Source of the DNA: Mytilus galloprovincialis
Taxonomy: Eukaryota > Mollusca > Bivalvia > Mytilida > Mytilidae
Assembly (NCBI RefSeq): GCF_965363235.1
Contig: NC_134849.1
Coordinates: 55,436,122 to 55,500,121, forward strand
Length of the DNA stretch: 64,000 bases
Direction of reading: 5' to 3'
How positions within the stretch are numbered: the stretch's first letter is position 1; each line of letters begins with the position of its first letter. The notes beneath the pieces are model-generated. The model searched no databases. It saw only the letters and a list, made by a program, of their open reading frames with translations, and was not told the DNA's origin. This document shows positions 23,011 through 64,000 of this stretch, in pieces. The translations under genes and the position numbers were made by a program.

Positions 23011-24850
23011 TTAAAGTTTATTCACATTTTAGTTGAAAACCCACCGATGGAGAATTCTCTGGCTCTTAATTTTGATTGGAAGGAGACATTAAATGTTTCA
23101 ACATAAAATAGCAATTATTCTAAAGATCCCACTGTGCATTTGCATAGATCTGAACCACTTCTTCCATAATTGTTCTTAAATTTTTTTATATTGTTTCTAG
23201 TCCAAGAAATTGAAAGATAATCAGCGAGAATCAGTAAAAGAGGGAGACACCTATGGAGGAGAAATAGAAGTGCAAGAACATATTGACACAGAAACTATTC
23301 CATCGAAGATGAAGTTTGGAGGAGAAGAATCAGTAGTAGTTTTTGATTTAGAAACAACAGGTAAGTGTAAACAAACAAATTGAATCACAGATATCAGGCT
23401 AAAATAATGGCACACAAGATACATGATTTGCCTACTTTCATGACTTTATTAGTGATTCTTTAATCAAATATTGATGCTTGGAATAAAGTTACCATGACCT
23501 TAAAACTTACATTGCTATTGTTAGTAAGTGAAATAAGCTTACAATTTAATTGTAATTCAGTGAAATAGATGAAAGTGACATAACATAAAGCGAAGTAAAC
23601 CTCCATTGTATTGGGAATGCTTCAAGATTATCTTGGAATAAAGTGATATATTACTGATGTTTGTTGGGAGTTAAGTCCCTTAAGATTGACATGGATTACA
23701 ATTTAACAGCATACACTATAGGCTTTGATTTAAATTTAGCTTTATTCATGAGGAACTTGACAAATATAATTAAGTTAGATGAAAATGAAATCGCAATATA
23801 ATGTTCATATGAAAATAGGGTGCACTGCTAAAATTAGAACCTGCTGAAATTGAAACAATTTTTCTTGTAATCAAGAAATTTGACTCCCATAAATTTGGAT
23901 GCGCTTTTCAAGAAGCCATAAGTTTTTAAAAGAGTCCACCATTTAAAACTTGCTGTCGCTTAAATTAAAAAAATTAACATGACAAAAACAGTATTTAAAG
24001 CAGAATTTAACCAAACTTGATATATGGAACAAGTCATCTCACATTTCGGGATAGATACACTTTTAATTATTAATGCAATATTTGTTTATTTTTGTTCCAG
24101 GATTATCAAGGAAGTCTGATATAACTCAGCTGGCTGCATGTGATGGAACCTCTGTTTTTAATGAGTATGTATCACCTAGGGAGGTTATTTCACCCAAATC
24201 ATCAGAAATAACAGGATTGACTTTTGATTTTTCTTGTGATCAGATGTACAATCATGGTAAACCAGTTAAAAGCAGAGATATTCAGATTGTACTCCTGGAA
24301 TTTATTGAGTTTATCAGCAAAAAGAAGAAACCAATTTTTTTCGGTCACAACATTGCTTCGTTTGACATTCCCATATTGATGAACAAACTACGTCAGCACA
24401 GTTTTCTTTCAGAATTCATGTTACATATTTTATGGGTGCATTGATACAATAAAATTGGCAAGAAGGAAATTCAAAACTAAAGACATAGGAAATCATAAAC
24501 AACAAACATTGGTCACAAAATTACTTGGTGTAGAATATGATGCTCACAATGCATGTGCTGATGTCACAAGTCTATTTCAACTTCTTGCGCACTTTGAATA
24601 TTCAGAAAAGGATGTTTTTCCATTCAATTCAGCTTTGCTAACAGATTCTTACATTCCCTTGATAAGGGACTCGCGCATCACCAAGCTAACAGCTAGAAGA
24701 TTAGCACACAGTGGACTTTGTCTGAAACATCTACAGTTAGCATTTAACAGAGACAGTGAAAATGGCCTCAAATCTATTTTGTTAGAGCATGGCTTTAATG
24801 CCAAAACAGTCACATGTTTTACTAAATATTTAACATGTACTGAGGAATAA

Positions 24851-27633: not shown

Positions 27634-28335
27634 TCATTCAATATTCGAAAACACAAATTATCTACTTTCTTTTTATTTTCGTTAGCATTGCTAGGTCCCT
27701 TCTGCAATGTGTATAAGTCATATTTTTATATCCTGTTTGATGATATATATTCAGCTTCTAGTTAAATAAGCCAAACTGGCTTATAAACGTTTCGGTTAGG
27801 AAGTGCCTGCCTGATAAAGGGAAATGCAGACGTTTTGAAAGAACAAAATTTGTAAAGCATTTATTTCATTTACTAGCACTGAATATATATATATTGCTAC
27901 AGCTGAAAAGGTTATCAAATATGGTATGATAAGCACATAATGCATTGTAATGGTACTGACATAATTTATAATATGCAAATTTATCTTTAATATATTCCCC
28001 CTTAATCAATTTATAAATTATATTATATAATTCCTAACAAACAATGTATTCACTGTGTATATTTCTGTCATTGTTAGTTTATTTTTCTTGTGTATCATTG
28101 TTCTATTTCTAATCGTTCGCATATTATCTGAATTTCTTATGATGTTTTACACATTTAATAGATTCCAACTAACTTCCAATAATTTTGCACTTTAGATTCT
28201 CGATTTCTATTTTAAAATCAGTAGTAACAAACTTTTACATCAAATAACAAATTTTAACATCTTTGTAATATTAAACATTTAGGTTCTTCTCGTTTGATCG
28301 CTCAGGTTTATATTTCAATTTAAAATCCATTTATT
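27634..28335 (+). repeat. Right part of repeat R1 (copy A)
   Basis: Closely matches 31034-31412 plus 32127-32465 of copy B, for example TAGTTAAATAAGCCAAACTG and GGTTCTTCTCGTTTGATCGC. It lacks the 714-bp foldback found in copy B: ATCTTTAATATATTCCCCC is continuous near 27985. The reverse open frame at 27796-27978 is not supported as a gene. Confidence 0.75.
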
Positions 28336-28371
28336 TTTATTTTCTTAAAGCGTATAATAAAACTTATCTTC

Positions 28372-28935
28372 TCATAATTCATTTAAAAATTAAATCTCAT
28401 AGATCTCATTTTATTCACAAAAATTCATAACGAGGCATCTAATTTTCCTATGGGTTTTATTTCATATGTAGGAAGAAGAAAAATTAAAATATTCATTGCA
28501 ATTTTTCTCTTATTTCAAATAAAGAACTTATAAATCTTGAGACTGACATATTAACATTTTCAGACTCACATGACAGGCGATACAGTAAAAATATCTCGTC
28601 AATATGTCTATCAAAATTTTAAAAGAATCTATATATATATATATATATAGCTTGACAATTTACGTTTATAAACATATATCCCGGTGTGAAATTTACATGA
28701 TTTGTATAAAAACAATTTTTTCTGAATGCGATAAAATGTCTATAAAATCAGAAAATTATTGTTATCAAATAAAAAGCCAGGGATGAGTTCTTTTCTAATA
28801 AAATGCCCTCAGAAAAAAGCAATACCTTTGATATTTTTTTTGCGATTTCGAAATAACACTTTTAATATTTGTAGTCATACATAACATAACAGGATGCAAA
28901 ATAAATCATTGCAGGCTCGTGAGGTCATTGTCTAG
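28372..28935. other. AT-rich DNA, nothing recognised
   Basis: Simple TA repeat near 28630-28648. The small forward open frame here runs through that tract and is not believed to code. Confidence 0.4.
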
Positions 28936-28944
28936 TTTAAAAAA

Positions 28945-29535
28945 ATAAATGTGATGTTTAATACGAAGCCACGCCTGTTTTCCGACTAAATGTATCTCAT
29001 TCTAAAGCAAAGCATCTTTATAAATATGCCGTCACATCAACCCTTCGACAGAAAACACCATTCTAAAGAAATGCATCCTTGTTCACTGTGTGGGATGTAT
29101 AAATACGCAGTCACGTGTGCTATCCGACAAAACAACTCATTCTAATTAAATGCATCCTTTACTGTTGCTAATGTATAAATATGCCGCCACGTCTGCCTTT
29201 TGTTTGAAAAACCCATTATTATAAAATGCTTCTTTTCTGACGGTGTAGGATGTAATAATACGCAACTACGACTGTCTTCCCACTGAATACCCAATCTAAA
29301 GAAATGAATCCTTATTTATTGTTAAGGATGTATGATAACGCAGCCACGTTTGCCTTCCGACAGAGAACCTCATTCTACAGAAATGCATCCTTTTACTGTT
29401 TGTAATGTATAAATTCTCAGCCATGTTTGCCTTCCAATATAAACCCCAATTCTTGAAAAATGCACCAAAACTTCATTTTTAAAAAATGCATCCTTTTTTA
29501 CTCTGTTGGATGTATAATTGGTACAGGCATTGTCA
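28945..29535 (+). repeat. Diverged minisatellite, about 78-bp unit, roughly 7 copies
   Basis: Successive units share CATTCTAAAGAAATGCATCC, then a GATGTATAAATACGCA-type string, then CCACGTCTGCCTTCCGACA. Units differ by many substitutions. It runs directly into the 55-bp satellite. Confidence 0.7.
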
Positions 29536-29536
29536 T

Positions 29537-30413
29537 AGTTTCCAACACGTCAAGTGCACACAATTATACAACAATCTGTATTATTGTTAATAGTTTCCCA
29601 CACTTCAAGTGCACACAATTATACAACAATTTGTATTATTGTTAATAGTTTCCCACACTTCCAGTGCACACAATTATACAACAATCTGTATTATTGTTAA
29701 TAGTTTCCCACACTTCCAGTGCACACAATTATACAACAATCTGTATTATTGTTAATAGTTTCCCACACTTCAAGTGCACACAATTATACAACAATCTGTA
29801 TTATTGTTAATAGTTTCCCACACTTCAAGTGCACACAATTATACAACAATCTGTATTATTGTTAATAGTTTCCCACACTTCAAGTGCACACAATTATACA
29901 ACAATCTGTATTATTGTTAATAGTTTTCCACACTTCAAGTGCACACAATTATACAACAATTTGTATTATTGTTAATAGTTTCCCACACTTCCAGTACACA
30001 CAATTATACAACAATTCGTATTATTGTTAATAGTTTCCCACACTTCCAGTGCACACAATTATACAACAATTTGTATTATTGTTAATAGTTTCCCACACTT
30101 CAAGTGCACACAATTATACAACAATCTGTATTATTGTTAATAGTTTCCCACACTTCAAGTGCACACAATTATACAACAATTTGTATTATTGTTAATAGTT
30201 TCCCACACTTCAAGTACACACAATTATACAACAATCTGTATTATTGTTAATAGTTTCCCACACTTCAAGTACACACAATTATACAACAATCTGTATTATT
30301 GTTAATAGTTTCCCACACTTCAAGTACACACAATTATACAACAATCTGTATTATTGTTAATAGTTTCCCACACTTCAAGTACACACAATTATACAACAAT
30401 CTGTATTATTGTT
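29537..30413 (+). repeat. 55-bp satellite, about 16 tandem copies
   Basis: The unit contains TTTCCCACACTTCAAGTGCA, CACAATTATACAACAAT and CTGTATTATTGTTAATAG. Variation is limited mainly to CAAGT/CCAGT, GTGCAC/GTACAC and ATCTG/ATTTG; the last four copies all carry GTACAC. The open frame across its left end is fortuitous. Confidence 0.92.
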
Positions 30414-30659
30414 ACAACAATCAAACGATACACCGATAAAATTTGCAATGAATAATGTTACAGCGAGAATATGCTGGAACAGAGTTTATTGCCCTTGAAA
30501 TAAACATATTATGGTTGATTTACCTTTAATAAATCTTTACGCTCTGAAAGCAGCATTGCGTATATCGTTATTTCACCTACTTTACCTTTAAGTTTTTAAT
30601 GATTAGGATGCATATTTTGAAACACTCCGCTGCTCAAATGCACATATTTTAAAATAACC
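30414..30659. other. Short unique stretch between satellite and R1 copy B
   Basis: No feature recognised. Confidence 0.4.
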
Positions 30660-33334: not shown

Positions 33335-33990
33335 TTATCAAAAGTACCAGGATTATAATTTTATACGCCAGACGCGCGTTTCGTCTACATAAGACTCATC
33401 AGTGACGTTCAGATCAAAATAGTTAAAAAGCCAAACAAATACAAAGTTGAAGAGCATTGAGGACCCAAAATTCCCAAAAGTTGTGCCAAATACTGCTAAG
33501 GTAACCTACTCCTGGGGTAAGAAAATCCTTAGTTTTTCGAAAAATTCAAAAGTTTTGTAAACAGAAAATTTATAAAAATGACCATATAATTGATATTCAT
33601 GTCAACATCGAAGTGCTGACTACTGGGCTGGTGATACCCTCGGGGACGAAACGTCCACTAGCAGTGGCATCGACCCAGTGGTGTAAATAGTTATCAAAAA
33701 TACCAGGATTATAATTTTATACGCCAGACGCGCGTTTCGTCTACATAAGACTCATCAGTGACGCTCAGATCAAAATAGTTAAAAAGCCAAACAAATACAA
33801 AGTTGAAGAGCATTGAGGACCCAAAATTCCCAAAAGTTGTGCCAAATACTGCTAAGGTAATCTACTCCGTGGGTAAGAAAATGCTTAGTTTTCCGAAAAA
33901 TTCAAAAGTTTTGTAAACAGAAAATTTATAAAAATGACCATATAATTGATATTCATGTCAACACCGAAGTGCTGATTACTGGTATCTATA
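33335..33990 (+). repeat. Two tandem copies of a mussel-type repeat
   Basis: Both units contain ACGCCAGACGCGCGTTTCGT, CATAAGACTCATCAGTGACG and AAGAGCATTGAGGACCCAAA; the first ends with a CCACTAGCAGTGGCATCGAC tail. Reversed copies lie at about 39424-39568, 53170-53325 and 63842-63985. Abundant in Mytilus as I recall. Confidence 0.75.
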
Positions 33991-34386
33991 ATAAGTCGTA
34001 TTACAACAAGGTTGATGCCGATACTGGTACAGTTTCTTCTTCCAATGGTATCACCAGTTGGGAAGTCAGCATCAAGATAATAAAATCTTAAGAATTTTTT
34101 TTCGAATTTCCCTGTTGTTTTTATATATTTTATTAGGTTTGATGCCTTTGAATAAAAGACGGTATGCTGCACGACATGGACTTATAATTCGTCTATTCAG
34201 AATCTAATGCATTCTGGGTAATATTTTCAAACGTACTCGAATTCGTTGTGATTGGTTTAAAAAGTTCTAAACAATGGAAATTCAACGAAAGAAGTAACGT
34301 TATTTTCATTATGATGTACGAAAAATGACATTATCCATAGTTCTGAAAAGGCGAACTGTCTTGATATGATTGACTTTTGATGCGAA

Positions 34387-34427: not shown

Positions 34428-35492
34428 ATGGTCCCAAAAAAGATTATGTACCAGGCGACCATCGCTATTGTACTATACTGTTCCCTCTACATATTCTTCT
34501 TGCTGAAACCATTTTACCAAGATCACAGAAATGCATTTAATACATTTACATTACAAAGAGGAGCAGTTCATCTTGAGCATCAAGATGACAAACAAGTATT
34601 TTCAAAGACAAAACCTCTTCTTACTATTTTTACAACATGGATTTCTGACAAGAAAAAAAATATTTGCCGAAATAATACTGTTCAAAACTGGAATCTTTTG
34701 CAGAAGAATGTTGTTAGAATCTTATTTACTAATGAGTCTGATTTGACTGTAAGAGTGAAGTCGATGGGTTGGAAGGTTCTTACAGTTAAAAAAGTAGCAA
34801 GCGTAACTAAGGTACCGGTGCTAAAAGATCTGTTTTACTCGAGTTTCAAGGCTGTAGATTCTACGTTTTATGCATATGCTAATGGTGATATCCTGTTTAC
34901 AGATGACCTCATAAAAACATTGGAAACCATTTTGAAATCGATACTAAACAATTCAGACGATTTGTTGCTTATAGGTAGACGTACAGACGTACGGAATGTA
35001 ACGCTCGAAGAAGCAAAGAATCACGTGACCCTGAAACATGCAGCTTATAATAGAGGATCTTTACATACACCATATGGAATTGACTTCCTCATAATAAAAA
35101 AATCCTATCCACTTTTTGACTTACCTGACCTGGTTATAGGCAGACCTTATATAGATTCATTTATTGTTTTGAGGGCAGTGAATCGTGTACCTGGTCACGT
35201 GATTGACATTACTGCGACCTCATTGGCTGTACATCAGGTCACATTACCTGGAAAGGAAGGGGTCGACGAAGGTAGTACGCATCTGGATAAAAATTACAAT
35301 TACGATTTATTGAAATCAAGAAAACCGAATTACTCAAGAGGAAATACAAATTGTGCTCAATATTATACTAATCATACTTTGTTGAACAACAAAATAACCA
35401 TTGCAATTGAAAGAAGGAGGCATCTTATAGACAAGAGATGTTTACCATTAATAGTTGACATTTTTAAAGTAACTGGTGTTTTACGAGGATGA
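34428..35492 (+). CDS. Type II membrane protein, GT-A-like glycosyltransferase family (uncharacterised)
   Basis: One open frame of 354 residues. A likely acceptor (TTTTTATTCACAG, ending 34405) lies just upstream, so a 5' non-coding exon is probable and the coding region itself has no intron. Residues about 7-27 form a single signal-anchor segment, with a lumenal remainder as in Golgi glycosyltransferases. Inside are LLTIFTTWIS (about 64), ILFTNESD, a YANGDILFTDD motif (about 149-159), VGRRTDV-like LIGRRTDVRN, YGIDFLIIKKSYPLFDLPD and IGRPYIDSF. The order, with an NGD acidic motif, a GRR loop and an aromatic-rich acceptor region, resembles uncharacterised animal GT-A-like proteins. Donor and acceptor are unknown. 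Potential N-glycosylation sites occur (NES, NVT, NYS, NHT). A short repeat copy lies ~80 bp downstream. The gene call is strong; the enzyme class is an inference. Confidence 0.82.
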   Translation: MVPKKIMYQATIAIVLYCSLYIFFLLKPFYQDHRNAFNTFTLQRGAVHLEHQDDKQVFSKTKPLLTIFTTWISDKKKNICRNNTVQNWNLLQKNVVRILFTNESDLTVRVKSMGWKVLTVKKVASVTKVPVLKDLFYSSFKAVDSTFYAYANGDILFTDDLIKTLETILKSILNNSDDLLLIGRRTDVRNVTLEEAKNHVTLKHAAYNRGSLHTPYGIDFLIIKKSYPLFDLPDLVIGRPYIDSFIVLRAVNRVPGHVIDITATSLAVHQVTLPGKEGVDEGSTHLDKNYNYDLLKSRKPNYSRGNTNCAQYYTNHTLLNNKITIAIERRRHLIDKRCLPLIVDIFKVTGVLRG

Positions 35493-49300: not shown

Positions 49301-52300
49301 AAAGTAATTGTTATACTGTCCGAAATTGGCTAACAATGATCTACATGTACACAATACACGTGATATCACAACAATATTCCGTACTTGTGTTTTTTATACA
49401 CTACACAGCATACGGAATCGTTATATGTTAGACATGCAATTTCAAAAATTTGTAAATGATATTATATGTGAATATGGATTTTTCTCTCTTCAAAAAATGA
49501 AAAAAAAATAACGATCTTATATTTAACTGTTACTATGAGTCCCAGATAGGAAACAGACGTTGGTTCTTTCATGTCCAATGGCAAACATATCACACATGTT
49601 CAAGACGATAACACAATAATAACACATTTTGGTGAAAAATACAATAGGTAGATTTAGTAAAAGATGATGTTATGGATGAAAATTTGACTGACATGGAAGT
49701 GTTCCCTAACAACAGGCCACCTACGAACCACTCAAATAGTTGTTGAATTTTGCCTTAATGTGAAGAGAGCTTGACACCTTCTCTCTTAACGAGGAATCGG
49801 ATTTAACGTCCCGATTATTACAGGTTTAGGCTACGCACTTATACATCCTGTTAAGCCTTATGGACGTCTCACTTTATCAAGTTTAAAACTGCCGGTCAAG
49901 AGAAGACAAAAAGTAACAATATTTCCATTCCCCAGTAATATTTCGGTTTCTAAACTTTAGATAACGAAATTATACCTACCGTTTGGAAATGTAAAGTCAT
50001 GTTTATCCAATGTGTATTTATCCCAACCTCCAAATCCAGCTGATGCGCCGATACAATTACTGCCTTGTGTAACCTTACATCCCCTTTAAAGAGAACTAAG
50101 CTCTATGATGTATATAATACGGTAAAAAAATGTAGTTTAACGGAAATCACTAAAATCAAAAATCAATTTCAATACAATAAAAAAATGTCTATTTTCTCAT
50201 GTTTGCTTAATATTTCAATGTTTCCTTTCTTTACACTGATCGTTAGAATATGTACATTTTTAACATTCTTTCCTTCCCGTGGATTTCAGTTGATTTATCA
50301 GTTAAAAAAAAACAAGGAATTGATCCTAAAGGAATAATCACTATCCCAAGAAACGAACTGTCAATGCCATGACAAAATAAAAACGATAAACGACCAACAA
50401 ACAAACAGACAAATAGCAGAATACAAAACACAACATAGAAAGCTAACACGAACTCCATCGATCAATGCAGAGAATCATCGCAGGTGATCCAGAAGAGTAA
50501 TCAGATCCAGCTATACCTGTTGTGTTAATAAACGCCATGTGATACCTCATAGGGGCAACATACATGTAAATGAAAATCAAAAATTTCAAGCTAAAAGTTA
50601 AGATCATGATTGCAAATCAAGCACGCTTGCCTATATTGATTTTCTATGTGGCTATATACTCCTATATCATACAAAGCTTGTAAACATATATGGGATGCAT
50701 ATTACTATTTTTGTCTGACAATGGTTGCATATCTTAATTTAATTGTTCCGTTATTTAAAAAAGTATACAGAGTACTTTGTAAGTAAGACCTTTTTAATTT
50801 GTAACTAACCCATCCCACCCCCACAATTTGTTTTTGGTTTAAGCAAAATGAATACTTCTTCCTTTTTTGGATTTAAATGGGGAAATATTGCATTGAAGTA
50901 CTTTCTATGTCATTAAGTTTCTGTAAGAAAGTTGTCTCATTGGCACCCATACCATATCTTCTCATTTTATATAGACTATTATCTTACCTAAATACATCAA
51001 TTGTGTCGTCACTTCAAGTGGGAAATATTTCATGCATATTTAGTGCAACCAAACATTTAGAAGTATCCATAAAACAAATTTCCAACGAATTACACAAAGT
51101 ATCCTCAATAATCGGCGAAAATATCAAATTTTGACGTTACAAATTGAGACGTAATATCGTGCTAACCCTCATATGATACGTGTTACAAGAAACATTTAAT
51201 ATACAGAAGTAACAAATTTATAAAAAATGTTTGCTAGCTAATAAGTTTGTTATGTATGTTTGTAACTTAAGCCTGTCTATCAAATGTTTAAATGACATTA
51301 AAAAAAAATCATTACCATATCTCTTCCTTTGATATTGCTTCTTCGCAAACGCTTGTGGTCAAATGATGCACTCGGGAACGATCAACATCCATGTGAAGTC
51401 CAACTGATATTGCAAAATCAATTATGTACAATAAGAATAATAAATATATATATAATGTTGAAGGTTTTTACCTGACATTTGTATTTTTTCTATATTTTTT
51501 TTTTTTTTTTTTTTTTTGCTGTCTCGTTGAAGTTTACCTTGCAAGTAATTTGTGTTGACTTACAAACAATGATAACTATTTCAAGCTATTTTAGTCTCCA
51601 AATAAACGCAAAAATACGGTAGGGATGTGTGGCTCTACTTCCAAAAAAGACAACTAACATATTAATAACCAAATAAAAAAGATACATTCAATTGTCAGAA
51701 AATGACTATATAATTTGATCTAAGACAATAAAAGAAAACCAATAATGATAGACAACAGCCATGGACAACCTTTTAAAAACAGGTACCTTGCCTTAAAAAG
51801 CTCAAAAAGTGGCGAGGTTAATGATGTTGGTTTGGGATTCAACGTATTACCACGCCATAAAACCAGTCACGATGACATAAATAACATATGAAATAACAAA
51901 AGAAATCAGTTGAAAATTACTTAACTCATTTGATCGACACGAAGCAGGAAAAATAATAACACAATCCCTTAATACATTACGTATTGATCTAAATGTATTC
52001 TAAGTTTAAAAAAGTAAACTAGTCCTCAATATCACGTACGTGTATTGATATATATTTATATTATATATGCAAAGAAGACTCATCCAAAAGGCAGTTCGAA
52101 CTCGGACTTAGAGATCAATAAACGTTTCCTCCTTTGATGATCTATGCTATAATAAAACTGGTAAAGTTTAATTAGGAGACTTTTTATAACTATTTGATAG
52201 AATGTAGGAATTTATTTCACTATAGTTAAGCTATCAATCCATTTACTTTATTTTCAACCAAGTTTGAAGAGACAAAATGAAAAAAATATCTATGACTTAC

Positions 52301-52645
52301 CAATATAAGCTCTTTCATAGTCGCTGAAAGGAATAACTCTACACACATATGCTTCCTCCTGAAATTATTGACATCCTTTCTGAATTTCATTAGTACACAT
52401 GTTCACACTGTATGGTTTAAATTAGCAAGGGTGTGATGAAAAACAGAGTTACAAGGAAAAACTACAGACATCAATATGAACACAGTATGTTATATTTTAT
52501 CATATGTAAGTGGTTTCTATTTACTTACCTCCAGGGTATCGATTGAAGGCATTTCAACGGTAAACGTTTTGGAATGTGTTGAGCGCATCATTGCAAGAAA
52601 AGCGAAAAAAATAAAACAGTACATCATTGAATTCGCGTGATACAT
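40367..52645 (-). CDS. Secreted copper-dependent monooxygenase-like protein, PHM family
   Basis: Minus-strand exons with matching phases: 52529-52645, 52301-52358, 51316-51403, 49980-50059, 48914-48991, 48041-48089, 46483-46550, 45325-45405, 44291-44370, 42864-42917, 41931-41980, plus a likely last exon 40367-40455 ending in TAG. The product starts with a signal peptide (YCFIFFAFLAMMRS). PHM enzymes hydroxylate peptidyl-glycine, the first step of C-terminal amidation, using two coppers and ascorbate. Visible motifs: MPSIDTLEEEAYVC (32-45), VHHL (H71, H72) and LQLHY (H134), matching the three CuH ligands. VHTHHIG (H202, H204) matches two CuM ligands, followed by RNGTWILLGS, HGDIL and AARC. The exon that should carry the third CuM ligand (the EMC methionine) was not found between 41931 and 40455. 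Phase also demands one more exon there (length 2 mod 3). No lyase domain is seen. A related role (monooxygenase paralogue, not true PHM) is possible. Confidence 0.84.
40498..40660 (+). repeat. Short interspersed repeat copy in the last PHM-like intron
   Basis: Diverged member of the 2117 family (CCTAAAGTCCAGTCACGAAT, AACAACTGTCATACTATTCT, CTCTCACTTGAATTACTGTC). Confidence 0.55.
40975..41690 (+). repeat. Retroelement-derived composite repeat in the last PHM-like intron
   Basis: Around 41030-41160 one forward frame reads ISNGIAHPKCYGDEKNRAWK then LNHPLDKRIIKGYLINTI. From memory this is a string seen downstream of RT domains in mussel elements, here truncated by stops. It runs into a generic repeat end (GACAGTTGTCTCATTGACAA at 41647). 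It may have disrupted or displaced the missing PHM-like exon. Confidence 0.45.
42300..42425 (+). repeat. Mussel-type interspersed repeat
   Basis: Contains GTTTCCAAGAGACAACAACC and CAGCCTGAGGTCACCAATGG. A reversed relative lies at about 58525-58620 (GGTCGGGTTGTTGTCTCTTT). Confidence 0.6.
46385..46478 (-). repeat. Short repeat abutting a PHM-like splice donor
   Basis: Reverse-oriented member of the 2117 family (TTGAATTTTACTCGCAGTTC, then AGTATTTTTGTAATGTTAC). Its 5' end lies within about 5 bp of the donor of the exon 46483-46550. Confidence 0.65.
47400..47515 (-). repeat. Mussel-type interspersed repeat
   Basis: Reverse copy of the family at 17697: GTTGAAGGCCGTACCTTGAC, GAGTTGTCTCATTGGCACTC, CATACCACATCTTCC. 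Lies in a PHM-like intron. Confidence 0.65.
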
Positions 52646-52687
52646 GTCTTCTCAATAGTATTGATCTGAAAATAAATCCCAATATTG

Positions 52688-52695
52688 CTATATAT
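52688..52695 (-). promoter_or_regulatory. Possible TATA box of the PHM-like gene
   Basis: On the minus strand ATATATAG lies about 45 bp upstream of the start codon at 52645, a plausible distance for a short 5' UTR. Sequence only. Confidence 0.35.
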
Positions 52696-53169
52696 TGTGC
52701 TGTCCTCTCAAGATATCAAAGTATACTCGACGAACTATATATCTGTTTATTTACAGCTGTTATGTTCCCCCTCGCTTAAAACAAATTTATTCAAAACAAA
52801 CGTTCGTCGACATTAATCTTGTTTATGTAATACGCCATTCGATCAGCAATGTTAACCTTGATCTACATGATAGGAACGAATAATATGTATGCCTAATAAG
52901 ACTAGCTATTGGAATACTTTAGGTGTAATAAATCAGGTGCCTTGCAGTTACAAGTTAGTTTAAGTGAATGTATATACAAAGATATAAACACCCTAAAAAG
53001 GAGTAGATCAACACAAAATTAAAAAATTTAAACAAAACAATATATCATTCTGTGTTGACTTGAGTTATCATTGGTATGTTCATAATTATAAATTAACTTA
53101 ACAAAACTTTGACTTTTTGAAAAACTAAGGCTTTTCTACCTCAGGAATAAATTACCTTAGCTGTATTTG

Positions 53170-53325
53170 GCAAAACTTTTATGAACTTGTGGTCCTCAAT
53201 GCTCTTCAACTTCGAACTCTATTTTTCCTTTTAAACATTTTTTAATTCGAGCGTCAATGATGAGTCTTTTGTAGACGAAACTCGCGTCTGGCGTAAATAT
53301 AAAATTTTAATCCTGGTATCTATGA
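53170..53325 (-). repeat. Reversed mussel-type repeat upstream of the mini-exon gene
   Basis: Contains GTGGTCCTCAATGCTCTTCA, GATGAGTCTTTTGTAGACGA and CGCGTCTGGCGTAAA. It ends about 280 bp before the TATA box of the mini-exon gene. Confidence 0.7.
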
Positions 53326-53606
53326 TGAGTTTATTTGTACAAGAATCAAGAGTAATCTACTTTCTTGTGTGGTCCATATAAGAGTGTAAAACAGGATTTC
53401 TTATCATCAGATTAGGTACTTTGAAATTGTTTTCATTTACTTCGATCATTCTCAAGTTGAAAATTATACATATCAGTTATTAGCAAAGCTAAAATTAACC
53501 TTTAACAACAAAACCTTGAACTTTATTTGGCTTTGTTATATTCTTCTGCGCATTTCACTCACTTAAATATGGTATTCCTTTATCAGTTCTTCCACTGATA
53601 AAACTG

Positions 53607-53614
53607 TATATATA
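53607..53614 (+). promoter_or_regulatory. Probable TATA box of the mini-exon gene
   Basis: TATATATA followed by GCC, about 50-58 bp before the start codon at 53665. Fits transcription starting near 53640. Confidence 0.5.
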
Positions 53615-53664
53615 GCCGATATACAGCGAAATTTGTTTATAACTTGCTATTTCTAGATTTCAAC

Positions 53665-56600
53665 ATGATCGTTCTTTGTTTGGTTTATTTGAGCATAAGC
53701 GGTAAGTTCATTGCAACACAAATTAATGTTAAAACTTCAGACACCATTGCATAAAGAGACAACACAATAGCGAATTTTCTCATTTATTCGTTTAATTGTT
53801 TGTTTTTTTGTTGTGCTTTTTTTTGGTTTACACACTATGTGAATCATAAATTTTTAAACTTTGAAGTTCATCTGATTATGCTTATATGATTATAACGTAT
53901 AGAAAAGTTCCAGTAGATCTGACAACTTAAAACAAATCAGAATGTACTAATCTTTCAAGTTACATGCGTTTTTCTGATTTCACTTAAAGTATAAAAACGG
54001 GAAGATGAGAATTGTATTACTTTTGTGTTTGTATAGATCAATGCACAATCATAATGTGTTTTCTTCATCAATTTCAGTGTTTCAGTCGGCAATTGGTTGT
54101 AAGTTTATTTACCCTATTTTATAAATTCAATTTGATCTGATTCCATAAACGTATCCGAACAAATATTAGCTATACATCAATCTTGGTTTTAAAAAAATCA
54201 TATGCAACATTCAATAGAGGTAGTATCCTGCTTGTAATGACATGTTTTTATTATTGTTGAAGGTTTACCAGGCAAAAACGCAATTCAATACCGATACTTT
54301 GAACTGATGTACATTAATCGTTTCTCCATAAATACTTCAGTAAATCTGAAATAAAATGCCCGCTTATTCCAAAACATAGTATATATATTTCTCTAATTCT
54401 TCGTCAATTTATCTCTTTCTGCACCCATTGTATAAAAAAAATTTAACCAACATGTGGTTCGTTTGATCTCAGTTCTTCATTGGTTAAAATCCGATTATGA
54501 CGTCGACATTTCTGACGGCATGAAAAAAAGCTACCATGCCTGATGACGTCACATAGAAAGAACACATCTTTTTGCAGATCATTCGAAAAGAAGGAATACG
54601 TTTGCCTGCATATTGTTTGAAAATCTTCAGATAAAAAGATTCTACCACCAAATCTCATGTAATACGATATTTATCCACTCTCGACAGTTAAATTTCAAAT
54701 ATTTAAAACGCTCGGCGAGTCTCGCGTTTTAAATTTTAAAATTTAACTGTCTCGAGTGGATAAATATCGTATCACACTCGATGCAGTGGTAGAATCTATA
54801 TATATATAAACAATATTTATAAATAATTCAAACTGATGTTCATTTATGTATTAATAGTCAACTGCAAATGAATCAACTGTAATTTGAGTAAACACAATAC
54901 CTTGATAGAGTATATCTCCTGCTTAACATGCCACACCCTTCGAAACATTTTTGTGTATTTTATATTTTGTCTCAAATATAAACTTTGTTGTATGATAAAA
55001 TCGATTATAGTTTTGTGTTTTCGTAATATAATATTGTCTTATTACAGTAAATGAACGGTATATTTACCCACAAACAGGCACGGTTTCTGCAGAAAAAGTG
55101 CACGAATGTAAGTTCTGTTTCAAAATATATCGTAATTATTTTATATATTTGTGAAAACATTAAATCTTGATCTTTCTTAGTAGTAAATTATTGTGAAATT
55201 ATTGTAAAGTTCATTCATGCTATAAACTTTCTTTATTACGGATAATTGAGATTTTATTACACTTTCCTTCGACCTTTTTTCGTTATAGTTAACGTTTGTT
55301 GCATCGCTACATATAAGCCTCATGCAGCATAGGATACAATAATTGTTGATTCATTTCAAAAATGCAATTGGGATTGTTATTAGATTCACACTTCATACAA
55401 TGAAAGAATTGTTTTCACAATTGTAAGGTTGATTCATAAACCAGACACAGTACTTTAGCCTTACGAAACTAATCTATTTCATCTAGCAAAAGATGGTTGT
55501 TTTACTTTAAAGCAGACAAATAATTCATTAAACGACAACTGTACCATTTAACGTCAACAATGTGGTTTTCTTATATAAAATCTGTTCTTATCCTTCTGAT
55601 GAGTTAATATAAAAACAGAAGATCGGGTATGATTGTCAATAAGACAATTCTTCACAAAAGACCAAACGACACCGAAATTAACAACTATAAGTCACTATAC
55701 GATTCAAATATTTGCAGGATTTAGGAATAAGTTGTTCAATGAAAATGCTGGGCTTTCTTTTAGATATTGGGTTTTTAATATTTAAATAGTATCTATGTTC
55801 AGGGAGATTGCCAAAGTCATAGTACCGTTAAAAGTAGGACTAACATAAAAGAGAAAACAATAATGAATCCATCATGTTCAGAAATGGGATAAAATGAAAC
55901 CTCGTCTCAGTTGGTATCTTATGTCTGCATTGGATATATAACCCATCACTTGGTTCCAATGTCGGACATTTTCAGTAATAACAGTCAGAGAATAAATTTG
56001 TAGTTTTTTGTACGCTTTTGAATAGTTTCAATATTGACAACAAAAAGTCGCATCAAATTCCATTATATTTAGTTATCGTTACAAAAAAAAATGCATTAGA
56101 ATGAAGAGTAACGTGTCAGTGTTCAATGTTTTTACATTGTAATGTAGCACTTGGCCAGAGAGGTGGACACTGTGTTTGTAGAACTTAAAACCACTTGTAT
56201 ATTTGTAAAAGTATCTACTTAGTACATCAAAATTAGTTTATGGTCAAAGTCCTACAATTTTAGACATATGCAAACCATACTTTGATTTTGTTTTGATTTT
56301 TTTCAATGAAGAATAGTCAGTTAGTAAACATTTCGACCTCTTGTTATTGCTAGTTAAGATCATAATTATATTAGAAATAAGGTCAGGGTATAATTTTGCC
56401 TCTTTTTACATTACAGTGGTGGACAGATATGCCTATCCACAAACAGGTACAGTATCTGTAGAAAGAGTGAATGAATGTAAGTATTAATCTTCCTTTTGAT
56501 ATTAAAGTTGTTAAATAATTTTGAGAATACAAGATTTAAACTAACATTTCAGTTTCTAATGCAAAATAAATTGAGATATGATCAACTTATATAGCATGTA

Positions 56601-59600
56601 AATAATGATAGATCATTCGTATGACAAATTCTAAACTGAACTATCAATGTACTTTGATAGGTTATATATATATCCCCCCCCCCCTTGTCAACATTAATCA
56701 TGTACTATATTTCGAGTTTTGATTTTGAACTTTGTTGCATGATATCATTGATGATAGTGAAGTGTGTTAGTATTGAGTTATTTTTGTCTTTTTTTAACAA
56801 CAAAGATATGTTTTAAATCCCTTATATTGCTTGTTTCGTGTCTACCTTAGTGTCAGAACGCCAGGGAGTGGGGTATTCCAGTGTTATACTTTCTGATTGG
56901 CCAAGAAAATACACAGAATATAATTTTGTATGACAATAAATATTATTCTATGATATTAATTCCTTTAAATTAAGGAAAATTACATTTTTTCTGATATCTT
57001 GTTTATCGAAATTGAGTTTTGTTTAAAGATGTTCTACTGCCGTCAAAAAGTCTTTTAAAAATTAACTTTGAAAAAAAAGGTAAATTATCTTCTTCCCTAC
57101 TGTTTTACAAAAACACATGAACTATCGTTCGAAATTTTTCATCTCAACAGAGACTGCTTTGTAGCAATAATATACTATAATATAATATAACATGACTGAA
57201 GCAATTTCCATTTAAACATTTCATCTTCTTCTCTATTAAAAATTTGAATATAAAATCGTTTATGAATGATATATGTGGATAGTTGTTTATCTTTAAATAA
57301 CTTATCCAACCATAGATTCAAACTAGATGTGTAAATTGTGTTCATCTAGTAAACAGGCTTAACTATCGTATAACATTTTATCATAAATATCTTTTGTTTT
57401 TGGATTTGTTTATTTTCTCATCTCTTGTTTATTTTCTCATCTCACTTCAATACTGATTATATTCTTGATATAATTTTCTTTTATTAGAACTTGCTGTCAT
57501 TTCCTCAGGATGTAGGATGTTTATGTCTTAACCTTTACAAATCAATTTGACTTATCGTTTAATTTTTCTAAAGCAAAAACATGTGATCCAGTTTGTCGTT
57601 GATATTTATCAATCTACTTTCCATCCAGTTTTGAAATACAAGCATTTGTTGCAAAGTTTATTGTGTATATTTGAAAAGAGATCTTTAAATTTTATAAAAC
57701 CCGACTTGAAATTACCTGCAAATACATTTTCTGTGTTTTTCCGAATTTTATTAGTGATCTTACATTAACTAAATTCATTTTAAAGACATGAGAAATTGTA
57801 CTCTGATTTTTAAAACATTAGGCAGATGTTGTAAATCTGAAAATCCATGAATATTTCAGTGTCATAAATCACTTATCTTAGTCAACTTTTTTAATCAACC
57901 TCTTTGATATTCGCCGATAATAACATTTTTTTATACTTTGCAATTTTTACCATCTCTAATATATTTAAAACAACATTTATTTTTATTACAGTACTAAGAA
58001 GGTATATTTACCCTCAAACAGGCACAGTTTCGGCAGAAAAAGTGCACGAATGTAAGTTTAAATTTTTTTTCAGTTTGTAGTTTGTATTTTTATTTTTTTT
58101 TTTTCAATTTGTTAAAACAGTAGCTCCTTGTTTCTCCTTAGATGCACTTATTGTAAAATGCATATGCACTATCATATTTATATTTTTATGGGGAGTTGCT
58201 TACACTATTACCCTGTCCTTTGTTCGTCATATTTATCACTTGTCGTATTGGTATAGCTTGACACAGCACAGGAACACATAACAGCTGATTTATTTTCATA
58301 AGGCACATGGGATTGTGTCATCGTTATAAGATTTTGTATTTATTTCCTATATCTCGTAAGCAATGAACAAACAAATCAAACCTTGAATGTCATATTTAAA
58401 AAAAAACATGATAGATATTTAAACCAAATACTGGTCAAGGCGTTCTGTATACCAGATACCAGATAACTCCATTCTTTCTTGTATCTTCGTAAATAGTTTA
58501 TGCCTATAGTATGCTTACACTCGCTACATTGAAGACCTGTTGGTGATCCTCTGCTGTTGTTTTGTTTATTTGGTCGGGTTGTTGTCTCTTTGACACATTC
58601 CCCATTTCCATTCTCAATTTTATTACACGTTTATTTAACAACCTTCCTTCTGGTTAATACTTCAGATACTAAACACTTATGGAAATAATACTCTTCTATT
58701 TTCGTCATGTGAAAGATGATTGTTTTACTTTTAAGCAGACATATTAGTCGTAGAAGGACAAATATAGATTGCCACTTTCTCGATTCAAATATTTAGGAAT
58801 AATATGTCATATGAAGTCGTAATATTGGATTTTAAATTCTAGCACAAGATTAAGATATGTATATGTTCATTGAGCAGATCAAACTCATTGTACAAGTTAT
58901 CAACAGGTCAAATAAAGAACTAAAAAATATTATCAACTTCAGAAAGAGAAACAAACAAAAACGCGACTAGGTAGACATCTTCTATTGATATCTAATCAAT
59001 TATTTCATTCCAAAAGAGAACATTTTGTAATACTAGTCTGATCAGAAACATAAAATGACGACAAGTAACGTGTCGAGGAATAATTTATTTATATTGTCAA
59101 TTTGCTGTTGGACAAAGAAGTGCATTCTCAAAAACCGGACATGGCATATGTAGAAATTAAAACCTATTTACAAATGTACACACACAAAATTCCTTGTTTA
59201 TAATTGATACACTACAACCTTAGTATATCAATATCTTTTTTGTTATTTGTTATTTTCCAGGTTCTTACAAAAAAAGTAGAATAAAAAATATACTAAACCT
59301 ATATTTTCATTCCAATACAGAATATTTCCTGTAATATTATTCAGAACAGAAACACAACATGACGAGTGACGTGTTGGTGAATTATTACATTACATTGTAA
59401 AATTGCTATTGGACACAGAAGTGCATTTCCAAAAACGGACATGCCCTATGTAAAAATTAAAATCCCTTTTCATATTTACACACAAACAAATTTGAAAGTT
59501 AATAATTGTGACACCACCTACTTATTATATCAACATTAAATTAGAAAGGGGTTATTTAAAAAAAAGAAGTAAAATAAAAAAAAAAACACAAAATCCACAA

Positions 59601-62600
59601 AAATATCTCAAAACGGAAAGTTTCCTTATCAAATGGCAATGCAAAAAGAACTTATGAATTATTTTTTTAAAACAAGAATAGTCAGACAGTACACATTTTC
59701 GTGTCGTGTTACTTCGAGTAGAAATCAGAATCACGGAAGTACAAGTTTCAAGATATAATTTTGACTAGTTTTCACATTACAGTGGTGGACAGATATGCCT
59801 ATCCACAAACAGGCACAGTCTCTGTAGAAAGAGTAAATGAACGTAAGTATAAATCTTCAGTTAAAATTGATTATTGTGCAATCATTTATATATTTTCGCA
59901 TCGTTCATTTATTCATGGAAAACAATATTTGTGAAATAATTTTCAGAATGCAAGATTTATCTATAAATGTCAATTTCTTGAGAATTGAATACAACAGAAA
60001 CTTGCCAACTTTATATGTTGATTTGAGCAGGCGCAGATCCGGGTGTTATTTGCATTACACAAAATAACATCTTGCTTCCTTGACATATGCATACCAGTAC
60101 ATTCTTTAGCTTATAACTACGAAATGCATTTTTATAACGAAGGTTAATCTTAATTAACATTGTACAATTTAAATATGGTGTGCAGTTATAATTGCGAAGA
60201 ATAGAATGTTTAAGAAAAGTAAGCAAGATTGTCTTTTAAGTCGTCATTTGAGATCTTCTGATATCACTAAAGATATCGCAATCGCCTGACTATTTATTAC
60301 GTTAATCATAATAAAGCTCTGGTCTAGGTTGAAGAGACTCAATCTAGAAAAACAAGTGTAGTTCAAAGAGTGCAGTGCTAACAACAACAGCTAGATGAGT
60401 GTTATTTGGGGTGTACAATGCGCAGTTCCATATATTTCAAATACTTAACTACATGAACTAAGATTCCACAAATAACTTTTCCATCGGTATGAATATCAAT
60501 AAAGCAAAATAAGACTCCACTGTTCATCCTAATATTGTAGAATTATCGGGTGTCTAATATATCTATTGATAATAATTATTGTGCTTCTTTACCTCATATT
60601 TTTGTGTCGCTTTTGTTTGCATTTTGAGGCGTAAACCAAAACATTATACTATATGTTATTCAAGTCTCACGCAGGGTATATAATGTGACATCTCATGCTT
60701 AGAATTTAAATTCTCTGAGCCGTTGGCGAAAGTGATATACACCTTAATACGGGAATGCCACATTATTACTGTTTGTGTTTGTTTGACTATTTTTTGTAAA
60801 AACTATATTGTGAAAACCCCACCCTGATTTTTTCTGCATTAGTGAAGGATTTTGTAATTTGCTTAAAAAAACAATCTTATCGTGTATGTAATATTTTATT
60901 AAAACACTTTAAAACATTATTTTTGGGAATTTAGAGTTTATATTGCATGATTTTGAATTGAAAACGTTTTATCGACGGATGCACGTCATTATTTCCCTCT
61001 CTGAGCGTTTGAATTCTTTAAGTATTCTGTATAGCTTTACAAATGGATCAACTTCAAACTTACTTAGCACAATACCTCGACAGAGTATATATATATTCTG
61101 CGCAGCATGCCACACCCGTCAAAAATTATAATGTTTGTTATATCAAGTGACGATTATAAACTTTATTGCATGATATAATCGATGATAATTAAGTGTATTC
61201 ATAATCTTTTATTGTCTCATTACAGTAAATAAACGGTATGTATACCCACAAACAGGCACGGTTTCTGCAGAGAAAGTGCACGAATGTAAGTTTTTTTTTA
61301 ATTTTAAATTGCAATTAATTGTTATAGATTTGCTAAAATATTTACTCTTGAACTTATTTAGTAGGTAATTATTGTGGAACTATTGTAAAATGTATTAATA
61401 CTATAAACTTTTTTATTATTGATAAATGAGATTTGTTACACTTCGAACTTTTTCATCAATGTTTACGCTTTTTGGCATTGCAACATATGATAAACTAAGT
61501 GTTGATTCATTTTAAAATGACTAATGGGATTATAGCGTCGTTCTTAGATTCACTCTTTCTTTGTTAGAGGCTGGTAGAACGTGGATTCCTCCCCATTAAA
61601 TATAGTTGTCAACATCCAAATAAAAATTATCGTTACAAACAAATTGCATTAGAATGAAGAGTAACGTGTCGGTTTTAAATGTCTTTATATTATAATGTAG
61701 CACTGTGCTAGAGACGTATAAACAGTTTGTGTAGCAATTAAGATATTTAACCTTGTATTTCATTCCAATAAAGAGTATTGTGTAATACTAGTCTGATCAG
61801 AAACATAAAATGACGACGAGTAAGGTGTCGATGAATACTTTATTTATATTGTCAATTTGCAGTTGGACACAGAAGTCCATTCTCCAAAAACGGACATGGC
61901 ATATGTAGAAATTAAAACCTATATACAAATGTACACCCACAAATTGCATTGTTTATAATTGCGACACTACAACCTTAGTATATCAAAATCTTTTTTTTGT
62001 GTGTAATTTGTTATTTTCAAAGTTCTAACAAAAAAGTAGAATTAAACAAAAAAATCTATAAAATAACCAAAACGGAAAGTTTTTTTATCAAACGGAAATG
62101 CATACAGAACTTATAATTTTTTTTCATAAACAAGAATAGTCAGATAGTACACATTTTTGTGTCGTGTTACTGCGAGTAGAAATCAGAATCACGGTAGTAC
62201 AAGTTTCAAGATATAATTTTGACTATTTTTCACTTTACAGTAAAGGTCAGATATCCCTATCCACAAACAGGCACAGTCTCTGTAGAAAGATTGAACGAAT
62301 GTAAGTATTAATCTTCATTTAAAATTGATAAATGTGTAAAAAAAACTTCAAAGTTGGCTTTGATTGTTATTTTCCATCAATTGGAATAGCTACGAGATGT
62401 TCAATAGCGATTTCAAGAAAAATAATATACGGAAATTGATATACTAAACTTAAAATGCCAATTCTCATTTTTGCAAACCATATGCTGTCGTTACTTCGAA
62501 AAATTGTATGAATTTACAGTACTACAAAAAAAAATGCAGCTTTTTGTCTTACCACAATCAATAAATATATATCTTAAATAAGGTAATCATTGTAAAGGTA

Positions 62601-63541
62601 ATAACAAGATGTAGAACTTTAGAAAATTTTATGCAAAATCTTTGAATCATGTTTCTTGCAGGACTTCAAATATTATGTAATAAGAACAGAGTAAATAATT
62701 ATGACATTGATGAGGCAGGACAGCTATTTCATAATGTCTTTTCTGCTATCATTATCTTTTTTTTATTTTTTGAGAAATTATGTACCCCAAAAATTTGGAA
62801 ATAAATCTCATTCGAAATTTGAGATCTCCTCACAACACCTAAGCAAAAGGGATGTTGCGCGTTTATTAACAAAATTAATCATGAGACACCTTAATCTGTT
62901 TAAGATAGTAAATCCGGAGATAAAAGGTTCAAACAGTTCAAAAGGTACAACCGTTATCTAGGACAAAGCTGACGAGGCAAGGCATAACATTGACCAACGA
63001 AAGCTATATTTGTATGTAGCCTATGTGGTCGAGTGGTCTAAGGGTATGGACACTGTTCAGGGAGTGTTGCCATGTTGTCACTGAAGCTAGGGTCCGAGTC
63101 CAGCTGCGGGAAGAACAAAAGTTTCTAGCTCAAATTTGAAGATAAATTATTGTTGGCCTATGTTTGAGACGAATTAAACCTATATATTTCATATTTATAA
63201 TTCGTCCAAATATTACCCCAACAATGTTATTTTCATATTTTTGTATATACATATATTTATATTTAATTCAAAATGATGTTCATTTACGTTTCAATAGCCA
63301 ATGCATCAACTGTAAAAGGAGTAAACATGATACCTCCATATAGTATGTATGTCCTGCTTCACATGCCAAACCTGTCAACGTATATCATATATGTTATATT
63401 GAGTCTGAAATATTAACTTTGTTGCATGATATAATTGATGATTATTAAGTTCATTCATAATCTTTGATTCTCTTATTGCAGTAAATAAACGGTATATTTA
63501 CCCACAAACAGGCACGGTTTCTGCAGAAAAAGTACACGAAT
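53665..63541 (+). CDS. Secreted tandem 20-residue-repeat protein encoded by alternating 60-bp mini-exons (runs off window)
   Basis: Exon 1 (53665-53701) encodes a signal peptide start, MIVLCLVYLSIS. Exon 2 (54078-54098, 21 bp) adds VFQSAIG. Then come seven exons of exactly 60 bp: 55048-55107, 56417-56476, 57992-58051, 59783-59842, 61226-61285, 62241-62300, 63482-63541. All are flanked by AG/GTAAGT and all are phase 1-1. Each encodes one 20-residue unit with core RYxYPQTGTVSxExxxE. Odd units are type A (YIYPQTGTVSAEKVHE, once YVY); even units are type B (YAYPQTGTVSVERVNE, the last PYPQTGTVSVERLNE). There are no cysteines. Basic residues precede the YxYPQ core (NKR, LRR, VDR), so processing into peptides is conceivable. 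I recognise no family. The last exon ends in a good donor at 63542, so the gene continues to the right. Confidence 0.85.
54637..54797. repeat. 161-bp hairpin element in intron 2 of the mini-exon gene
   Basis: Left arm AGATTCTACCAC ... TACGATATTTATCCACT ... GACAGTTAAATTT pairs with right arm AAATTTAACTGTC ... AGTGGATAAATATCGTA ... GTGGTAGAATCT, around a GCTCGGCGAGTCTCGCG centre. Foldback or MITE-like; no coding capacity. The reverse open frame at 54443-54658 adjoins it and is not believed to code. Confidence 0.8.
55616..55690 (+). repeat. Mussel-type repeat fragment in a mini-exon intron
   Basis: GGGTATGATTGTCAATAAGA and ACAACTATAAGTCACTATAC match the family at 17697. Confidence 0.55.
58525..58620 (-). 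repeat. Mussel-type repeat in a mini-exon intron
   Basis: Reverse relative of the repeat at 42300: GTTGGTGATCCTCTGCTGTT, GGTCGGGTTGTTGTCTCTTT, ATTCCCCATTTCCATTCTCA. Confidence 0.6.
63015..63170 (+). repeat. tRNA-derived SINE
   Basis: A box-like TGGTCGAGTGGTCTAAGGG at 63028 is followed by a B box-like GGTCCGAGTCC at about 63091, an arrangement typical of a class II (Leu/Ser-like) tRNA head. It continues into an unrelated tail. The acceptor stem is not intact, so it is called a SINE and not a tRNA gene. Lies in the intron after mini-exon 62241-62300. Confidence 0.65.
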
Positions 63542-63841
63542 GTAAGTTTTGTTTCAGTCTATGTTGTACTTATTTGTTATAGATTTGGTCTTCTTTAGTA
63601 AGTATTTATTGTGAAATTCATTTATACTATAAACATTCTTTATCATTGATAAATGATATGTTCCCGCGACCTTTTCTATCATAGTAAACACTTTTCGCTT
63701 CGCTACATATAATCACGGTTGATACATTTTAAAAATTGGGATTTATACGTCGCAATTATATTCACGTTTTATACAATGTGAAAATTGTTCAAACGCAACA
63801 TAAGAAAAACCTAAGAAATTCAAATCTAAAACACAACATAT

Positions 63842-63985
63842 GCTCCTAAATGCTCTTCAACTTCGTACTCTATTTGGCCTTTTAATTTTTTTTTTATTCG
63901 AGCGTCATTGATGAGTCTTTTGTAGACGAAACGCGCGTCTGGCGTAAATATAAAATTTTAGTCCTGGTATCTATGATGAGTTTAT
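63842..63985 (-). repeat. Reversed mussel-type repeat near the right edge
   Basis: AAATGCTCTTCAACTTCGTA, GATGAGTCTTTTGTAGACGA and CGCGCGTCTGGCGTAAATAT match the family at 33335. Confidence 0.7.
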
Positions 63986-64000
63986 TATAACATAAAATGT

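Follow-up and report, generated by a model that had tools for sequence, protein, structure and literature searches.

What kind of product is made by a row of very short, nearly identical exons is the question raised by a locus near the end of a 64,000-nucleotide (nt) stretch of the Mytilus galloprovincialis genome (assembly GCF_965363235.1, contig NC_134849.1, positions 55,436,122 to 55,500,121 of the forward strand), referred to here as the window. A preliminary description, made from the letters alone, had proposed an array of 60-nt exons encoding a secreted protein of 20-residue repeats. From the genome sequence we assembled a predicted gene of 14 coding exons over 16.3 kb, with a 717-nt coding sequence for 238 residues. 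The locus is very probably a functional secreted-protein gene that is apparently complete, conserved and undescribed, and its sequence makes it fairly probable that the product is a secreted multi-copy peptide precursor processed at dibasic sites.

The seven 60-nt exons reported earlier were all found where they had been placed, each with an AG acceptor, a GTAAGT donor, phase 1-1 boundaries and the core RYxYPQTGTVSxE. The strict pattern CAG-60 nt-GTAAGT occurs seven times on the + strand of the window, open in the predicted phase in 7/7 cases, and never on the - strand, against a chance level from 40 first-order Markov simulations of 0.275 patterns on average (0.1 open) and at most 2 per simulation. 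A motif scan of the window, restricted to candidate exons with P and TG (a filter not used in the strict count), gave one chance match outside the array, TGTVS at 34023, which is part of no unit. Reading 60 kb further to the right, as the preliminary description had advised, revealed three more repeat exons past the window end, then a 48-nt exon and a terminal exon closed by TAA; an AATAAA-type signal follows some 258 nt after the start of this last exon. Seven is the right count within the window, but the whole gene holds ten repeat exons of two types in strict A-B-A-B order without exception, the A exons ending in AEKVHE and the B exons in VERVNE or VERLNE. No additional repeat exon was found in a 74-kb scan (window positions 50001-64000 plus the 60 kb downstream). 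The TATA box ahead of the signal-peptide exon was recovered as described; that exon encodes the start of the predicted signal peptide, but a previously unlisted exon of 21 nt (VFQSAIG) completes it. All 12 internal exons are phase 1-1 with lengths divisible by 3, the introns measure 376 to 2121 nt, the only donor other than GTAAGT is the GTAGGT of exon B4, and the 14 exons contain no stop and no broken splice site.

The repeat exons are 80-97% identical within a type and, for the seven window copies, 67-75% between types, and the core YPQTGTVS is unchanged in 10/10 repeat exons. Taken in pairs, the exons encode five A-B blocks of 40 residues that are pairwise identical at 33-39 of 40 positions, with 33 positions invariant and variation at positions 2, 3, 6, 22, 23, 26 and 38. 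The precursor contains five [KR][KR] sites, at residues 62, 102, 142, 182 and 222, exactly 40 apart and each followed by Y or F, so that a dibasic site is present at 5/5 pair borders (A2-A5 and exon 13) versus 0/6 other unit starts. The first A border, beside the signal peptide, reads NER and has no dibasic site, and the B borders (VDR, VDR, KVR, VDR, KVR) are monobasic, with 0/5 dibasic. This placement gives a Fisher p of 0.002 on the assumption of independent borders, which paralogous copies are not. More telling is that the codons for the basic pair differ (AGA AGG, AAA CGG twice, AAG AGA, with AAA CGA in exon 13) and the pair is nonetheless kept, while the adjoining residue 2 varies. Thus, while each 60-nt exon does encode one 20-residue unit as first described, the dibasic spacing indicates that the unit of duplication and processing is probably the 40-residue A-B pair; likewise, an R is present at every unit border, as had been claimed of basic residues in general, but the dibasic sites are confined to the pair borders.

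The precursor would consist of a signal peptide, MIVLCLVYLSISVFQSAIG, presumably cut after AIG, followed by five tandem 40-residue blocks, each from one A and one B exon, and a short tail. The mean hydropathy of nonamers in the signal peptide ranges between 3.04 and 0.90 for start positions 1-13, with A at -3 and G at -1 of the presumed cut. If an enzyme of the prohormone-convertase type cut behind each of the five KR or RR pairs and the basic residues were then trimmed off, the products would be one peptide of 42 residues, four of 38 and a 15-residue tail, FFLERLAQRLRDLEN. The 38-residue peptides would read Y[IV]YPQTGTVSAEKVHEL(VD/KV)RY[AP]YPQTGTVSVER[VL]NE(LN/LL/FA), with calculated average masses, unmodified, of about 4327.7, 4366.8, 4326.8 and 4357.8 Da, and the predicted peptides have isoelectric points (pI) of 4.96-6.77. 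Each half-block would form a turn at YPQTG and then a segment resembling an amphipathic helix; the helical moments of the two 14-residue segments are 0.44 and 0.56 at 100 degrees, versus 0.06 and 0.11 at 170 degrees. As a first guess, the peptides may have a hormone-like or other extracellular signalling role.

Protein searches against 5.8 billion sequences found a single relative, one of two candidates compared: LOC127732076 isoform X2, an uncharacterized protein of 100 amino acids from Mytilus californianus; such searches require shared 5-residue words and similar length and may overlook relatives that have diverged or are far longer. Among longer proteins of the same collection (about 250-800 amino acids), 49 candidates were compared and none had E <= 10. 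With exon breaks set in this analysis, the order of the relative is ...MITLYLVYFSIC-VFQSAIG-LNERYIYPQTGTVSAEKVHE-LPKRFILGRHAKRLLD-FEN, which matches the signal-peptide segment, exon 2 at 7/7 and exon A1 at 20/20 residues, and includes counterparts of exons 13 and 14 (FAKRFFLERLAQRLRD / LEN here, LPKRFILGRHAKRLLD / FEN there). The last two exons were located via this tail and are not independent of it, while their proper splice sites and phase are independent. The first 42 residues of the relative are probably not protein, because they mostly align to the translated upstream region with the TATA box, where the frame is broken here; its LYIKP would be compatible with TATATAAA at the matching place. 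The protein is an apparent orthologue, and its name, 'isoform X2', points to one or more further predicted isoforms. According to PMC12294457, the Mytilus species complex separated from the M. californianus/M. coruscus lineage about 78 million years ago, a date that applies here only if the species of the window belongs to the complex.

Table 1. Elements of the predicted peptide gene, in window numbering; positions above 64000 lie beyond the window end.
Element	Position	Strand	Sequence and character	Remark
TATA-box-like element	53607..53615	+	TATATATAG	from sequence; 58 nt before ATG
Coding exon 1	53665..53701	+	MIVLCLVYLSIS; signal peptide start, ends in phase 1	counterpart of MITLYLVYFSIC in LOC127732076 isoform X2
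Coding exon 2	54078..54098	+	VFQSAIG; 21 nt, signal peptide end, phase 1-1	7/7 identical in LOC127732076 isoform X2
Repeat exon A1	55048..55107	+	LNERYIYPQTGTVSAEKVHE; first unit after signal peptide, without dibasic site	20/20 identical to single unit of LOC127732076 isoform X2
Repeat exon B1	56417..56476	+	LVDRYAYPQTGTVSVERVNE	
Repeat exon A2	57992..58051	+	LLRRYIYPQTGTVSAEKVHE; dibasic RR before Y	
Repeat exon B2	59783..59842	+	LVDRYAYPQTGTVSVERVNE	
Repeat exon A3	61226..61285	+	LNKRYVYPQTGTVSAEKVHE; dibasic KR before Y	
Repeat exon B3	62241..62300	+	LKVRYPYPQTGTVSVERLNE	
Repeat exon A4	63482..63541	+	LNKRYIYPQTGTVSAEKVHE; dibasic KR before Y	last exon in window
Repeat exon B4	65663-65722	+		beyond window
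Repeat exon A5	66509-66568	+		beyond window
Repeat exon B5	67232-67291	+		beyond window
Exon 13	68157-68204	+	FAKRFFLERLAQRLRD; 48 nt	beyond window
Exon 14	69957-69967	+	LEN; terminal	beyond window

The repeat exons appear to be under purifying selection. Among the five A exons the proportion of synonymous differences (pS) is 0.405 and that of nonsynonymous differences (pN) 0.058, with a ratio of nonsynonymous to synonymous divergence (dN/dS) of 0.10; for the five B exons pS is 0.162, pN 0.065 and dN/dS 0.37. At residues 7-20 the A copies have a pN of 0 against a pS of 0.33, that is, no amino-acid change in five copies, and the B copies a pN of 0.013 against 0.175. Exons are more alike than their pooled 200-nt flanks in 20/20 within-type pairs (p 4e-10 to 0.008), although some flanks, at 41-50% identity, are perhaps not homologous at all, so that the better-aligned pairs A1-A3, A1-A4 and A3-A4 give the fair comparison, with exons at 93-97% and flanks at 73-74% (for A1-A4, 58/60 versus 257/350). 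When each flank is considered by itself, its identity is below that of the exons in 39 of 40 cases, the exception being the upstream flank of B2-B3 (88% versus 85%). Exons have probably been exchanged between copies, since this flank exceeds its exon in identity and since B3 shares KVRYP with B5, yet has an upstream flank nearest that of B2 (88% to B2, 68% to B5). Exchange alone does not account for the surplus of synonymous differences relative to amino-acid replacements.

The preliminary description knew of no described family with this motif, and none was found in the searches of Pfam, solved structures and literature that we made. In Pfam, neither one block nor LOC127732076 isoform X2 has a match at E <= 0.01, with weak matches below the cut-offs at E <= 10. 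No peptide-hormone family of Pfam matches the 38-residue block, and for two blocks searched singly the one match was Tas3-like_N (E 0.039 and 0.15, under its cut-off), with HMMER filters dropping most weak matches. The best hit among solved structures has an E of 0.39, for a 159-residue chain, and one block has none at E <= 10. Bacterial and archaeal contigs gave 76 pattern matches and viral contigs 16, none of them a relative. In full texts, whose coverage leaves most subscription journals outside, no match was found for the core (YPQTGTVS, PQTGTV, or YPQTG with Mytilus) or for LOC127732076. A search of the 1.38-Gb genome, in which the window is C12:55436122-55500121, with limited sensitivity for paralogues as it reported six of the ten known repeat exons, gave 11 matches, five of them in two other places, three overlapping at C6:91.19 Mb and two at C12:73.67 Mb. 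Both places hold tandem DNA repeats, C6:91192360-91195587 open in three frames of one strand (141, 166 and 346 codons) and C12:73670685-73673915 in two (385 and 326 codons). Translated in two or three frames, each gives a 20-residue repeat, and we rejected them as paralogues and took them as probably non-coding, matching by period alone.

Several observations weigh against a dibasic-processed precursor. For this composition the count of dibasic sites is unremarkable, with five observed versus 4.3 expected in residue shuffles (P(>=5) = 0.43), and what is notable about them is their placement only. The R before Y is invariant at the B borders too, and may be structural or may mean that all borders are cut. 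No Gly precedes any dibasic site (the preceding residues are L, N, N, L and A), and the peptides would therefore not be amidated; amidation is present in many, not all, neuropeptides, and Gly before a dibasic site is common without being obligatory. The signal peptide was judged by hydropathy only. LOC127732076 isoform X2 has one repeat, the multi-copy form being seen in this genome alone, and its AlphaFold2 model is uninformative, with a mean predicted local distance difference test score (pLDDT) of 51. Finally, the full 238 residues pass the Pfam cut-offs of four unrelated families, Tas3-like_N (PF22378; 46.2 bits, cut-off 26), DUF2533, nSTAND6 and DUF3155. Membership of these was rejected as an artefact of repetition, since one block matches none of them at E <= 0.01; among six equally repetitive shuffled-repeat controls, four pass the cut-off of some Pfam family, one at 55.2 bits.

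The alternative that survives best, unlikely as we judge it, is an uncleaved secreted structural protein of the byssus, shell matrix, mucus or egg coat, in which ten helix-turn units would be stacked or cross-linked through Tyr and the basic pairs would be incidental. The tandem, near-identical units, their composition (Tyr and Thr each 10% and Cys absent in the seven units of the window) and the invariant R-Y at all ten units, B included, are in its favour, as is the restriction of the protein to one lineage, which is common among repetitive structural proteins. It does not account for dibasic sites at every pair border and nowhere else, kept through different codons, and the single unit of LOC127732076 isoform X2 would make a poor repetitive structural chain. 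Less likely again is a precursor cut at all R-Y borders, monobasic and dibasic, into ten peptides of about 18-20 residues of A and B kinds, which would come closer to the 20-residue unit of the preliminary description; it overlaps with the dibasic-processed precursor, and the probabilities of the two are not parts of a single sum. An R precedes Y or F at 10/10 repeat units and at exon 13, and by hand count a basic residue lies at P8 of the B borders (AEKVHELVDR), one of the positions named in the P4/P6/P8 rule. Against cutting at all borders, the residue before R at the B borders is acidic or aliphatic (VDR, KVR), unlike at the later A borders, and the two types alternate in 10/10 exons.

Kinship with the myticalins, antimicrobial peptides of Mytilus, is very improbable. 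In its favour, the predicted product has Cys-free repeats, a signal peptide, KR sites and one known relative in Mytilus, and myticalins are linear, Cys-free, presumed KR-processed secreted peptides of mussels that likewise have a phase-1 intron (PMC5577615, PMC12294457). The identity was rejected on the 14 coding exons and the pI range given above, compared with three exons, a single highly cationic peptide of pI > 11, an anionic tail and a different signal peptide in the myticalins (PMC5577615). Least credible of all is a decayed or never-expressed array whose copies are kept alike by gene conversion rather than selection, which would fit the signs of exchange in B3 but not the pS of both exon types beside an almost complete lack of amino-acid change at residues 7-20, the 14 intact exons or the A unit identical in M. 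californianus.

If the gene encodes a dibasic-processed precursor, the number and kind of its peptides could be altered by exon skipping, because the internal exons are 1-1 symmetric and the codon at repeat junctions is always Leu. The claim that any subset of the exons could be joined without a frame change was borne out: of 91 possible forward joins, 60 create Leu (including all repeat-to-repeat joins), the 13 from exon 1 create Val, the 18 into exons 13 or 14 create Phe, and none creates a stop codon. Without a B exon, the neighbouring dibasic sites would enclose an A peptide of 18 residues; without an A exon, two blocks would be fused. The phases would allow skipping, and the model of LOC127732076 isoform X2, in which a single A unit is followed at once by the final exons, hints at it, but the GTAAGT found at 12/13 donors suits constitutive inclusion. 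Intron pairing typical of mutually exclusive splicing was not found among the three inverted repeats of at least 20 nt in window positions 53000-64000, none of which is so arranged. That exon choice regulates the products, making this a splice-programmable gene whose peptide is built from two interchangeable mini-exons, one of them with the dibasic site, is a tentative and rather unlikely proposal. If it were true, the spliceosome would set the number and form of the peptides, as 18-residue monomers, 38-residue helical hairpins or longer fusions, and the sites open to proteolytic cleavage would depend on exon choice. In this possible splicing mode the gene would resemble vertebrate Tac1 (preprotachykinin A), with symmetric cassette exons present and no claim of homology intended. 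To our knowledge, Tac1 has no array of near-identical exons. Four splice variants of Tac1, and peptides of the family that span several exons, are described in PMC6880623.

The introns and flanks of the gene also contain repeated DNA. An inverted repeat resembling a miniature inverted-repeat transposable element (54631-54803, with 77-nt arms that are 81% complementary) lies in intron 2, and two copies of a dispersed repeat, 90.8% identical, lie upstream of the promoter (53184-53335) and in the intron after A4 (63835-63986). A stretch at 63020-63110 is tRNA-like by eye, with boxes resembling GTGGTCGAGTGGTCTAAGG and GGGTCCGAGTCC, and is possibly a short interspersed nuclear element; ARAGORN, run with the bacterial code, found no tRNA gene in the window. 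Elsewhere in the window, a candidate Type I hammerhead ribozyme lies on the - strand at 33365-33408 (36.1 bits, gathering score 34), a minisatellite of 16 copies of 55 bp with 97% matches occupies 29535-30414, and the 2-kb stretch 28001-30000 has a guanine-cytosine (GC) skew of -0.23. On the + strand, 19977-20405 and 24073-24847 contain partial sequences from a Mutator-like transposase (PF20700, E 6e-33) and from a gene of PML_C / DNA_pol_B_exo1 type (PF25244, PF03104), and 34428-35492 is an uninterrupted open frame of 354 amino acids whose N terminus includes a hydrophobic stretch and for which Pfam gave no match at E <= 0.01.

The predicted product would be of a known kind, a multi-copy secreted peptide precursor, in an unusual layout of two mini-exons per peptide. 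A signal peptide, many similar copies and basic borders are shared with the multi-copy neuropeptide precursors of molluscs and other spiralians (for example FCAP, FxRIamide and APGWamide, and the repetitive DH44 of Platynereis), among which scallop precursors with 13-21 copies and annelid DH44 precursors with 13 and 16 copies are recorded (PMC5996578, PMC4200219). The mussel gene differs from these in having no sequence relation that we found, no amidation Gly and each copy split over two 60-nt exons. It adds a secreted peptide family that is apparently undescribed and has so far been found only in mussels, and its layout, with one exon per half-peptide, the cleavage site on alternate exons and Leu at the junctions of the array, makes a link between exon choice and prohormone processing testable.

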